Shown here piece after piece: positions 46,591 through 49,424 of a DNA stretch of 64,000 bases. Origin of the DNA: an uncultured Acidobacteriota bacterium (GTDB lineage Bacteria; Acidobacteriota; Terriglobia; Bryobacterales; Bryobacteraceae). Within the stretch, counting starts at the first letter, position 1, and each line of letters starts with the position of its first letter. The position numbers and the translations under genes are program-made. The notes beneath the pieces were generated by a model that was given only the letters and a program-made list of their open reading frames with translations, had not been told where the DNA came from and did no database searches. The DNA lies in contig CADEFT010000004.1 in NCBI GenBank assembly GCA_902826685.1, positions 136,469-200,468 of the forward strand. Reading direction: 5' to 3'.

Positions 46591-46700
46591 CCCTGCACTC
46601 CGGAACCCGATATTGTTGTTCCGGTTCGTTGGCTCGTTGTTGTTACGCACCGAGGCCCGGACGTTCTGTGGATTGTTGTTCCAACCCCCGCCCCGCGCAC
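46591..46700 (-). repeat. DGR template repeat (TR)
   Basis: This 110-bp repeat is read on the minus strand and is adenine-rich at AAC/AAT triplets. Read in the target-gene frame it would encode GGGW-NNN-PQN-VRASVR-NNN-EPTN-R-NNN-IGFRSAG, a classic DGR template in which Asn codons mark diversifiable sites. Thirty adenines are present; 19 have changed in the VR and no other base differs. Bases 46643-46700 also encode the last RT residues in another frame. Confidence 0.97.
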
Positions 46701-47767
46701 CGGCCGCGCTCCGCTGCGCCTAGTATAAGCGCTCTGAAGATCCGGTGCCGCAATCCCACTGTGTTGCCGAACGATGCATGCCCCAGCCACGCGGCGATCC
46801 GTGACCGTATGCCGGAAAAACTCATCTTGCCGCAGTGAAACTGCTTTCCCATCCAGGCAAACCGCCGCCGCGCGAGCACCACACTGCGCCTCGGTAACCG
46901 TGCGCGCTCGGGAAACAACCGCCACCCCAGAAAAGTCAACCCGTCCTCGCAACGGTAGACACGGCTCTTGCCCTCGTGGAACGAGAGCCGCAGTTGCGCC
47001 ATCATCCTTGCCATCGCCCCGCGCATTTCGATCAGCGCGTCAAAGTCATCCCCGAAGACCACCAAATCGTCGACATACCGTAGGTACAGCGCCGGTCTCA
47101 ACTCGCGTAATACGTACTGGTCCAGCACGTTTAAATACACATTCGAGAAGAACTGAGAAGTCTGATTCCCGATCGGAAGACCCCGCCGCCGTTCAAACGG
47201 CGTGAACAGGTTGTCCCCCGGATAGTACACGTTCCGCTCTTCCTGTTCGTTCGAGCCATCGACGATCTGGAACGCCAGCGCCAGGGTTTGCGGACACTTC
47301 ACCGCCCGCGCCAGCAGATCCCTCAAGATTTCGTGATCGAGAGAGGGAAAATATTTGGCCACGTCGCATTTCAAAACATACTTGTACTTGCGGCAGGCGG
47401 CGCGCGCCAGCCGCAGCGCCTTGTGCTGCCCATAGCCCTTTCGCGACGCGAACGAGCAAGGCGAAAAGCGCCGCTCGAACACCGGCTCCAGGACGCCAGT
47501 GAGCGCGTGATGGACCACGCGGTCGCGAAACGGCGCCGCCGAGATCATACGCGGCTTGGGATCGCGAATCCAGAACGTCTGGTATTGGCCCGGCTGGTAG
47601 TCGCCAGCCATCAGTTCCCGCTGCAGCGCGCAGATGTTCGGCTCCAGATCGAAAAGAAATTGCGCCACGTCCGGCCGCGACTTCTTCCCGCGCGCCGCCA
47701 GCCGCGCCGACTCCATCAGGTGATCGAAACTCGTCAGTTGCGGCCACAGGTTGCCCACGCGCTTCAT
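46643..47767 (-). CDS. DGR-type reverse transcriptase
   Basis: A 374-residue reverse transcriptase. The catalytic Asp are D135 (KCDVAKYFPSLDH) and D233-D234 in YVDD (231-234). The segment IGNQTSQ (199-205) matches the DGR-specific IGxxxSQ signature in place of QGxxxSP of group II intron and retroviral enzymes. Early motifs QTFWIRDPKPRMISAAPFRDRVVHHAL and RKGYGQHKAL also fit. It makes mutagenic cDNA from the TR RNA with Avd. ATG 47767 overlaps the avd stop by 4 bp; upstream in-frame ATG 47797 lies inside avd. The last 19 or so codons run into the TR. Confidence 0.96.
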   Translation of the reverse strand: MKRVGNLWPQLTSFDHLMESARLAARGKKSRPDVAQFLFDLEPNICALQRELMAGDYQPGQYQTFWIRDPKPRMISAAPFRDRVVHHALTGVLEPVFERRFSPCSFASRKGYGQHKALRLARAACRKYKYVLKCDVAKYFPSLDHEILRDLLARAVKCPQTLALAFQIVDGSNEQEERNVYYPGDNLFTPFERRRGLPIGNQTSQFFSNVYLNVLDQYVLRELRPALYLRYVDDLVVFGDDFDALIEMRGAMARMMAQLRLSFHEGKSRVYRCEDGLTFLGWRLFPERARLPRRSVVLARRRFAWMGKQFHCGKMSFSGIRSRIAAWLGHASFGNTVGLRHRIFRALILGAAERGRCAGRGLEQQSTERPGLGA

Positions 47768-48111
47768 GGCCGTTCCCCTTGCGAGTGCTTGAACCATCCG
47801 CCCGCCATACGCCCGATTTCATCCAAGCCATTGGAGGCGTACTCGTATCCGCCTTCGGGCAGCAGGCGCAGATCTTTCGCCATCCGGATCAGATATCGCG
47901 CGCGGTTCACGTTGCGGATCGCGGCCGACAGCGGCGCGCTATTACGGGACTGGTAGGTGGCGTCCACTAAATTCATCAACAACTCCAATGATGTGGCGTT
48001 GAGACTCTGGCCGATGGAGAAACGGTACGATTTCGGGAACTTCTCGATGCGAGGATGAATCCAAAGGTTCCAGTCGTAAGCTTTCTGGACGATGACAGCG
48101 GTTTCTGACAT
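47764..48111 (-). CDS. avd: DGR accessory variability determinant (Avd, four-helix bundle)
   Basis: A 115-residue, all-helical, basic protein with the Avd/four-helix-bundle pattern: AYDWNLWIHPRIEKFPKSYRFSIGQSL, then LELLMNLVDATY, then a third helix IRNVNRARYLIRMAKDLRLL and a fourth ending GRMAGGWFK. In studied DGRs, Avd forms a pentameric barrel that binds RT and the template RNA and is needed for mutagenic cDNA synthesis. It lies between target and RT genes and overlaps RT by 4 bp. The frame is open upstream into the VR, but ATG 48111 gives the normal family length. Confidence 0.92.
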   Translation of the reverse strand: MSETAVIVQKAYDWNLWIHPRIEKFPKSYRFSIGQSLNATSLELLMNLVDATYQSRNSAPLSAAIRNVNRARYLIRMAKDLRLLPEGGYEYASNGLDEIGRMAGGWFKHSQGERP

Positions 48112-48141
48112 GGTCCGACCAGGATAGAAAAAAATTTCTCC

Positions 48142-48168
48142 AAAGGGGGGCTTCGCTCGCCCCCCTTT
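48142..48168 (-). terminator. Strong GC hairpin between VR and avd
   Basis: A perfect 9-bp stem (AAAGGGGGG with CCCCCCTTT, 48142-48150 and 48160-48168) encloses a 9-nt loop. In the direction of transcription a run of T follows about 10 nt later (48127-48133). It may end or attenuate target-gene transcripts before avd, or act as the DNA hairpin that some DGRs need just downstream of VR. A second C tract at 48174-48180 offers an alternative pairing. Confidence 0.5.
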
Positions 48169-48185
48169 GAAATCCCCCCCACGTC

Positions 48186-48203
48186 TTCCGGAGTAAAACG
48201 GAA
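48186..48203 (-). promoter_or_regulatory. Small hairpin close to the 3' end of VR
   Basis: TTCCG and CGGAA (48186-48190 and 48199-48203) can form a 5-bp stem with an 8-nt loop, 25 bp beyond the end of VR. A cruciform at this place is known to help target recognition in the Bordetella phage DGR; the same role here is a guess. Confidence 0.3.
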
Positions 48204-48215
48204 AACAATAAACTC

Positions 48216-49424
48216 TTAACGGAATTCCCCTGCACTCCGGAACCCGAAATAGATGTTCCGGCCCGAGGGCTCGAGGTCGATACGCACCGAGGCCCGGACG
48301 ACCAGTGGAACGACGTCCCAACCCCCGCCCCGCGCACCTCGGTACTTGCCGCTACCCGGTCCTTTCGGATCGCGCACCGAACCAGCCTCGTAAGGTCCAT
48401 ACCAATCGGCAACCCATTCCCAAACGTTGCCCAGTGTGTCGTAGAGTCCGAAAGCGTTCGGCTGCTTACCGCGCATCGGCTTTGTGGCGTTGCCGTTTTC
48501 CTGCAAGCGACCCCAATACTTCGAAGAGTCCGCGTCCCAAAGTTTCGCCGACTCGAGACGTTTGCGGCCGCTGTTATCGCCGAACCAGGCGATCTCATCC
48601 AATTCGCCATATCGCGCACCAGTCGTACCCGCTCTTGCCGCGTACTCCCATTCCGCTTCCGTCGGCAGACGCCCGTTTATCTTTCGGCAGTACTCCGCCG
48701 CCTCCTCCCAACTCACTTGTTCCACCGGAAGGTCGTCTCCCTTGAAATGGCTCGGCGAACTTCCCATCACCTTCCGCCATGCCGCTTGCGTCACTGGCGT
48801 TTCGCTCAGCCAGAATCCGCGCGTGATCTCCACTTCGTGAGCCGGCTTTTCGTTGGTGCGACACTCCGTGTCACCCGGCGACGCACCCATCATGAAACGA
48901 CCCGGCGGAATCCATACGTACCCCAGCCCGTCCGCCTCATGCACGAACGGATCCCGACTCACCGCCGCTACCGCCGCGGCTTTTGTAGCCTGTTGTAGTC
49001 CCTGAATCGCCCGGATCAGCACTTCCGTGTCCCGGTGAAACGATCCGTGCCCTACATCGAGCGCATGCCGCCGCACCAACGGCCGCAGCGATTCCGGCAG
49101 TTCCTCGGCGGCCGGCATCCTCACTCCGTCCACCAGCACGGGAATGACGCGGACACGCCGTTTCAATGCGGCTTCGATTTCGAGCCGCACCCAGTCCTCG
49201 GCGCGCGCCAGCCGCTCCGGCCTCCAGTCCTTGCCGATCAGCGCAATGAGCGCGTCACATTGCGACACGCGTTCTTCGATCACGTCCACGAAGTCCACAC
49301 CCGGCTCCATGTCCACGTCGAGGAACACGCTGCCGGTGCCGAACTGCGCGACGAGCCGGTCGTGCAGCCGCCCGGCCCAGGCCGCCTGCGGGTCTCGTCT
49401 GTAACTGATGAAGATGCTCGGCAT
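48216..49424 (-). CDS. DGR target protein: TIR domain fused to FGE-sulfatase/C-type-lectin-like fold
   Basis: A 402-residue protein. Residues 1-140 are a TIR domain (SIFISYRRDPQAAWAGRLHDRL, VFLDVDMEPGVDF, CDALIALIGKDW, WVRLEIEAAL, RVIPVLVDGVRMP); Glu82 or a nearby Glu is the candidate NADase residue. Residues 168-402 are an FGE-sulfatase fold (GYVWIPPGRFMMG, ETPVTQAAW, LPTEAEWEYAARAG, NAFGLYDTLGNVWEW, RGGGW, FGFRSAGEFR). VR encodes residues 363-399. Positions 370-372, 374, 375, 382-384, 387, 388 and 391-393 differ from the template. Likely an intracellular sensor with a TIR output; no signal peptide. The start is placed at 49424 by the TIR motif; the upstream open frame lacks homology. Confidence 0.93.
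   Translation of the reverse strand: MPSIFISYRRDPQAAWAGRLHDRLVAQFGTGSVFLDVDMEPGVDFVDVIEERVSQCDALIALIGKDWRPERLARAEDWVRLEIEAALKRRVRVIPVLVDGVRMPAAEELPESLRPLVRRHALDVGHGSFHRDTEVLIRAIQGLQQATKAAAVAAVSRDPFVHEADGLGYVWIPPGRFMMGASPGDTECRTNEKPAHEVEITRGFWLSETPVTQAAWRKVMGSSPSHFKGDDLPVEQVSWEEAAEYCRKINGRLPTEAEWEYAARAGTTGARYGELDEIAWFGDNSGRKRLESAKLWDADSSKYWGRLQENGNATKPMRGKQPNAFGLYDTLGNVWEWVADWYGPYEAGSVRDPKGPGSGKYRGARGGGWDVVPLVVRASVRIDLEPSGRNIYFGFRSAGEFR
48228..48337 (-). repeat. DGR variable repeat (VR)
   Basis: This 110-bp copy of the TR lies at the 3' end of the TIR-FGE gene. Counting in the coding direction, it differs from TR at 21, 24, 25, 27, 28, 34, 36, 37, 58, 60, 63, 64, 71, 72, 75, 76, 85, 87 and 90: seven A-to-G, ten A-to-T and two A-to-C. 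The first 20 and last 20 bases are identical to TR; the final stretch (48228-48247) is the candidate initiation-of-mutagenic-homology site. Confidence 0.97.

Follow-up and report, generated by a model that had tools for sequence, protein, structure and literature searches.

Does the 64,000-nucleotide stretch analysed here (the window: GenBank assembly GCA_902826685.1, contig CADEFT010000004.1, positions 136,469 to 200,468, from an uncultured member of the Bryobacteraceae) carry a complete diversity-generating retroelement (DGR), and what would such an element diversify? A first-pass annotation, made from the letters alone, had proposed a complete and apparently active DGR at 46591-49424. We find, with fairly high confidence, a complete DGR that likely diversifies the predicted binding face of a putative immune-type sensor, encoded by a single gene in which a TIR domain is fused to a domain of the formylglycine-generating enzyme (FGE) type. 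The whole element lies on the minus strand, in the order target gene with a terminal variable repeat (VR), hairpin, Avd, reverse transcriptase (RT), template repeat (TR) and a covarying RNA 3' of the TR. The description as complete can thus be extended to all seven parts. The span proposed for the element held the parts named for it, and with the conserved RNA that lies beyond the TR the element itself reaches to approximately 46458.

With the annotated ends, TR 46591-46700 and VR 48228-48337 each span 110 nt, and 19 of these positions differ between them, all of them adenines in the TR (19 of 30), with none of the 80 C, G or T positions changed; this core holds, and the true extent is 113 nt at both copies. 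The TR thus occupies 46589-46701 (minus strand, 31 adenines) and the VR 48226-48338 (minus strand), the latter forming the 3' end of the target gene and stopping 7 nt short of covering its stop codon. Over the 113 nt the 19 differences (A>T 10, A>G 7, A>C 2) fall on 19 of the 31 TR adenines, and all 82 other positions are unchanged, including 16 non-adenine third bases of four-fold degenerate codons (counted manually from the codon table). Sixteen VR residues have an adenine at codon position 1 or 2, and the coding capacity of the TR is approximately 10^15.9 protein variants with no stop codon possible. With random positions as the null, the probability that all 19 changes fall on adenines is P ~ 8e-14, which upholds the claim of a bias beyond ordinary drift, and chance or drift as the origin of the TR/VR difference was ruled out on these statistics. 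The view that a duplicated gene end simply diverged in the ordinary way, for which we found no point in favour, would have to account for this figure and for the same pattern across the family rows described below, and we give it practically no weight. When the TR was used as a query against its own genome (7.4 Mb, 83 contigs), the only matches were the TR and the single VR, and no further TR or VR of this DGR was found there by DNA, RT or RNA-model search. The stretch around the TR (46401-46900) likewise gave no match to four stretches of the same genome that contain FGE or TIR paralogues (L091-L094). A TR-like remnant near 46490, after the TR, was considered and rejected, since it belongs to the conserved RNA.

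The protein components are those of a DGR, in agreement with the annotation, which had noted the RT signature and Avd and had found no part that looked broken: the RT, Avd and target genes are all open. The RT gene (46643-47767, minus strand, 374 aa) most likely starts at 47767 (MKRVGN), where it overlaps the Avd stop in an ATGA, and its stop codon lies within the TR. Its translation contains IGNQTSQ and YVDD and matches Pfam RVT_1 and the solved 328-aa reverse transcriptase 8ub7 (E 8e-47), which we take to be that of BPP-1; a search of the own genome with the RT gave one match. The avd gene (47764-48111, minus strand, 115 aa) scored 88.6 bits with NF033474, against an NCBIfam cut-off of 80, and 64 bits with PF22296, against a cut-off of 40; a search of the PDB with Avd gave no match up to E 0.01. 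A defence-associated RT (DRT/UG) was rejected, as NCBIfam Drt models scored far below cut-off and a TR and VR are present. Among the 25 of 79 PADLOC matches listed, a generic RT model was the best for this enzyme and UG17 came next, more weakly. The overlap of RT and TR was surveyed in 31 loci, of which 5 have the RT on the other strand, 8 have it elsewhere and 18 are comparable, with RT then TR on one strand. In 15 of these 18, the window included, the TR contains the RT stop, with an overlap of 8-89 nt (59 nt in the window; the detected TR starts are possibly short in a few loci), whereas in L063, L073 and L085 it does not.

The element has many relatives in Bryobacteraceae, the family being judged from the named relatives. 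An RT match at E <= 0.001, in many cases distant, was found in 103 of 200 family genomes; the named RT relatives are Bryobacterales, Bryobacteraceae and Acidobacteria metagenome-assembled genomes (MAGs), with weaker ones in other phyla. We examined 40 regions around the stronger RT matches (L051-L090), together with the four own-genome regions. An adenine-tolerant repeat scan, seeded with 36 nt free of non-adenine mismatches, gave matches in the window and in 30 of the 40 regions, some plainly not TR/VR pairs, and none in the other 10 or in the four own-genome regions. From 57 extended rows, 41 were kept by a filter (length >= 90, non-adenine changes <= 3, adenine changes >= 9, AAC/AAT >= 6, A < 36%), two of them (in L070 and L082) being second registers of a pair already included. 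In these 41 TR-VR rows adenines were changed at 782 of 1280 positions and other bases at 32 of 3428, the latter rate being a lower bound because seeds and filter favour clean pairs. The rows left out include VRs with 4-6 non-adenine changes (L057, L064, L088). In L053, L064, L076 and L085 a second, inverted VR lies just past the TR, and one TR apparently serves two convergent targets.

Whether the window DGR is still working was addressed through its VR. It was compared with 40 rows from 28 other loci, and in all 40 the window VR carries the base of its own TR at every non-adenine site where the TRs differ (13-32 such sites per row). Over all ordered comparisons, which share loci and hence are not independent, the VR agrees with its own TR at 34348 of 34932 sites and with the other TR at 363. 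VRs have therefore been re-templated within each lineage. The comparison of VRs between relatives that had been proposed as a check was made at the protein level on public data, with residue classes taken from the window TR, and in most near-identical pairs the differences lie mainly at adenine-codon residues. Outside the VR, P0029 and P0034 are 96.9% identical; within it they agree at 2 of the 16 residues with adenine codons and at 18 of the remaining 20; P0029/P0038 (95.6% identity) gave a similar pattern, P0021/P0025 (94.7%) share 3 of 16 and 18 of 20, respectively, and five further pairs at 86-87% identity share 1-4 of 10-16 adenine-codon residues. Across 33 TIR-FGE proteins, VR residues with adenine codons had an entropy of 2.66 bits and the other VR residues one of 0.79, compared with 1.23 in the rest. 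The closest relative of the window target itself (P0002, 71% identity, among the best 120 of 7826 matches) is too distant for a within-species test.

A DGR that is complete and now silent, its VR the product of one or a few earlier rewriting events and since then held by selection on the lectin framework, would have a similar appearance. A VR free of non-adenine changes also fits a single recent event, and several relatives have RT genes that look broken (an early stop or split frame in L052, L058, L071 and L084, where the other DGR parts remain). Together with the 4-6 non-adenine changes gathered in the VRs of L057, L064 and L088, this indicates that DGRs in these relatives do fall silent. 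The window departs from that picture, in that none of its 82 non-adenine positions, four-fold third positions among them, has changed, RT, Avd and RNA are all retained, and the agreement with the own TR extends to every row, so that we consider silence improbable here. The annotation's 'apparently active' is well supported, if indirectly, by VRs that follow their own TR and by near-identical proteins that differ mostly at adenine-codon residues. On this sequence evidence the DGR is probably active.

What, then, does the element diversify? The target gene (48216-49424, minus strand) encodes 402 aa, with Pfam matches to TIR_2 (57.8 bits) and FGE-sulfatase (171.2 bits), and joins the TIR domain (residues 1-140; 49005-49424, minus strand) directly to a C-type-lectin-like FGE-sulfatase domain that bears the VR. 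When searched against the PDB by sequence, the TIR part matched only SARM1/TIR-1 chains up to E 0.01 (SARM1, E 1.7e-07). Glu82 lies at the SARM1 active-site position, aligning with the Glu of SARM1 DWVHKEI, which we take to be the catalytic residue, and is invariant in 33 of 33 aligned TIR-FGE proteins. These were picked from the best 120 of 7826 matches for the presence of TIR_2 and coverage of most of the query. The FGE part is probably no enzyme, because the target has cysteines only at positions 56, 188 and 246 and none in the VR; no cysteine was found where the cysteine-bearing stretch of formylglycine-generating enzymes, presumably that of the catalytic pair, aligns. A predicted model of the target (mean pLDDT 84.2, pTM 0.62), used in a fold search, recovered PvdO, TvpA (rank 2, E 1.5e-16) and FGE structures, and by sequence the target matched TvpA (PDB 2y3c) at E 3.2e-25. 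Judged from these likenesses, the target is predicted to be an immune-type sensor with a TIR NADase effector.

The targets of the sister DGRs bear on this prediction. We scanned a selection of 19 relatives' proteins with Pfam, of which 18 bear a VR, which with the window gives 19 targets, the domain classes overlapping. NACHT was found in 9 (one slightly below cut-off), TIR in 3 (the window, L053, and L064 together with NACHT), caspase in 3 (one slightly below cut-off), and nSTAND1, SIR2, trypsin-like, metallophosphoesterase and kinase (the last below cut-off) in one each; 3 have FGE alone, one of them (L077) in a 3.4-kb contig. At L053 a single TR fits two targets, DUF4062-NACHT-FGE and TIR-FGE. 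These varied domains suggest an FGE sensor common to effector types of bacterial conflict systems, the window target being a form with no NTPase domain. Proteins of adhesion and signalling are among the targets of other DGRs, and a working DGR could here diversify a surface or signalling adhesin-like protein, in which the TIR would be a scaffold with no enzyme activity. The lack of another linked defence gene among the 14 neighbours scanned would fit that view; the invariant glutamate at the SARM1 position and the NACHT, nSTAND1, caspase, SIR2 and trypsin-like domains of the sisters, typical of conflict systems, would not, and we consider it unlikely, at about one chance in four in our estimation. 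The target as an immune-type sensor remains the reading that we follow below. In the window's own genome, contig C19 carries a trypsin-FGE protein with a VR-like C-terminus that adjoins a TIR_2 gene (L091:5656-7065 and 4356-5696). No second TR of the window type was found in the genome for this gene, which is possibly an orphan or fixed DGR target.

The RNA that follows the TR (46458-46588, minus strand; model match 46458-46608, the TR end included) is a lineage-specific feature of the element. Post-TR stretches from 23 sequences could be aligned over approximately 130 nt, and 19 base pairs were taken as a manual cut of the 25 given by RNAalifold, made before counting. Pairing was found in 94.7% of cells over these pairs, with two-sided changes at 17 of 19. 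None of 500 shuffles reached any of five measures, and sliding the partners by 1-3 columns reduced pairing to 31-50%. A model built from the alignment, R1, gave 120 bits for the window and one match in its own genome, and also matched loci outside the training set (L076, L086, L059, L066, L075, L057 and L051) at E <= 1.4e-10. Across the 40 relative regions, 28 matched at E <= 1.4e-10 and 6 weakly (E 2.6e-6 to 0.006); weak matches occur at VRs because the model opens with approximately 20 positions of the TR end. In 200 family genomes R1 matched 34 genomes at 52 places, 33 of which share a contig with an RT match, among the RT matches listed (the lists were compared by hand). In 297 genomes across the phylum it matched the own genome only, under stricter filters that lose weak matches, and a search of Rfam with 46300-49600 gave no match up to E 1. 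Copies of the TR-linked RNA were also seen in eleven stretches with no RT match (L146-L156), some of them cut off by contig ends, with an FGE match alongside in 9 of 11; these are possibly template-target modules served in trans. In BPP-1 a folded spacer downstream of the TR brings in the RT-Avd complex and provides the priming for cDNA synthesis (PMC12875486), and by analogy the post-TR RNA of the window is predicted to be an element for RT-Avd loading and priming. No description of such a post-TR RNA or of Bryobacteraceae DGRs was found in the literature among the titles and abstracts of the matches listed. The covarying RNA thus offers a search model for DGR templates in Bryobacteraceae and a concrete hypothesis for how an RT may find its template outside the BPP-1 system.

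On the target side, a GC-rich hairpin (48142-48168, minus strand) starts 56 nt past the VR, with a perfect stem of 11 bp counting one more flanking pair. BPP-1 homing requires a post-VR hairpin, and the hairpins of phage DGRs have 4-nt loops and lie 4-34 bp from the VR (PMC3240598). With a perfect stem of at least 7 bp within 140 nt, a hairpin was present after 32 of 39 VRs examined, convergent second targets among them, starting 31-84 nt past the detected VR end and each equalled by no more than 3 of 100 base shuffles. A dispersed repeat was rejected as an explanation of the window hairpin, its pattern being single-copy in the genome.

Several observations weigh against the reading of a working DGR with an immune-type target. 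P0034 and P0038, 95.2% identical, share all VR residues, so that the expected VR difference between near-identical relatives fails for this pair. The genes of P0029 and P0034 are candidate DGR targets. In L145, the closest genomic relative examined, a TIR-FGE gene (L145:5424-6554) is 88% identical to P0029, and no TR, RT or Avd match was found in its 12 kb, nor any match to the TR known from its genome, whose DGR sits on another contig. Because L145 has no TR nearby, VR hypervariation in the kin of P0029 was not accepted as direct proof for the window DGR. For the target itself PADLOC gave weak TIR-type matches only, and a Uma2-like and a PIN-domain protein are the sole conflict-type genes among the 14 neighbours scanned. 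R1 found nothing in 6 of the 40 relative regions (L072, L074, L084, L087, L088 and L089), and the matches in 6 more are only the weak ones. Folded alone, the window RNA takes another structure, with z -1.49 and 13 of 200 shuffles equally or more stable, and by eye it holds 4 of the 6 consensus P1 pairs in the alignment. Finally, 7 of the 39 VRs have no hairpin by the same criteria, and the window hairpin has a longer loop and a greater distance (56 nt) than the phage type, with a T-run shortly after it that makes it a possible terminator. A mere transcription terminator of the target gene, with no role in homing, would be consistent with the GC-rich stem and this T-run and with the location between target and avd. 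The occurrence of hairpins after 32 of the 39 VRs, convergent second targets included, at +31 to +84 nt, argues for a homing role, as does the need for a hairpin in BPP-1 homing (PMC3240598). We regard a pure terminator as a real possibility, somewhat short of probable.

Taken with the BPP-1 precedent, the parts suggest how the locus may work. The RNA 3' of the TR would load the RT-Avd complex and prime cDNA synthesis, RT and Avd would copy the TR with errors at adenines, and the cDNA would home into the VR, replacing the 3' end of the TIR-FGE gene, with the hairpin aiding target recognition. The 16 adenine-codon residues are predicted to lie on the ligand face of a non-enzymatic FGE fold, and a bound ligand would activate the TIR domain, which is likely an enzyme of NAD consumption or NAD signalling, with an abortive-infection-type defence as the predicted outcome. 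We put forward more tentatively, at slightly less than an even chance, that the hypermutable FGE lectin and the lineage-specific RNA form an antigen-receptor platform of Bryobacteraceae onto which many death effectors have been grafted, the window being its minimal form, with a receptor directly driving a TIR NADase. If true, this minimal form would be a bacterial counterpart, encoded by one gene, of hypervariable immune receptors. The locus is a very simple version, with sensor and effector in one chain and one VR, TR, RT, Avd and RNA, and this layout of few parts makes an antigen sensor, mutated in advance and wired to a death domain, testable.

The surroundings of the element were scanned with Pfam over the 14 neighbour proteins (37119-56954), among which no MoxR, vWA or adaptor gene was found; the target has no vWA. 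A Uma2-family gene at 49476-49979 adjoins the target upstream on the opposite strand. A DUF1501 gene and a DUF1549/DUF1553 gene follow both FGE loci of the genome (42727-46356; L091:7108-11204) and may be just common in this genome.

The mechanism is that of a DGR of known kind; what the locus adds is an RNA specific to the lineage and a compact target of immune type. Earlier proposals of immune-type receptors diversified by DGRs come chiefly from multicellular bacteria (PMC10907252, PMC7159879), and DGR activity has been seen at read level in gammaproteobacterial MAGs (PMC10686091), a source whose Acidobacteriota mentions, in the portions drawn on here, concern other matters. The overlap of RT and TR is itself a described group, DiGReF group 3, with TRs that run into the RT reading frame at its 5' or 3' end (PMC3521204). 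With the BPP-1 DGR (mtd, avd, TR, brt) the window shares the adenine-specific TR/VR, Avd and DGR RT, as well as a C-type-lectin target with terminal VR; its covarying RNA 3' of the TR and its post-VR hairpin are putative counterparts of the folded spacer and the homing hairpin of BPP-1 (PMC3240598, PMC12875486). In the window the TR comes after the RT and shares sequence with the 3' end of that gene, the hairpin has a longer loop and a wider gap to the VR, and the target is a TIR-FGE fusion encoded by a bacterium, whereas that of BPP-1 is a phage tail protein. TvpA of Treponema denticola (PDB 2y3c) is likewise an FGE-like C-type-lectin variable protein of a DGR; its 294-residue chain, however, matches the FGE part of the window target only. 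Cyanobacterial multidomain DGR variable proteins include TIR-like domains among their targets, but belong to another phylum, and the parts of that source used here mention no direct fusion of TIR to FGE (PMC7517822). The VMAP ternary conflict systems also have DGR-diversified hypervariable FGS/FGE sensor or effector domains (PMC7159879); the neighbours scanned in the window, by contrast, include none of the MoxR, vWA and adaptor genes. Thiohalocapsa PB-PSB1 resembles the window in its DGR-diversified C-terminal CLec/FGE domains on effector or STAND modules, its DGR 2 having CHAT plus TIR and its DGR 6 nSTAND1-FGE (PMC10907252); the string 'Acidobacteri' is absent from the main text of that paper. 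In the window target, by contrast, TIR adjoins FGE directly, and neither an NTPase nor a protease was found.

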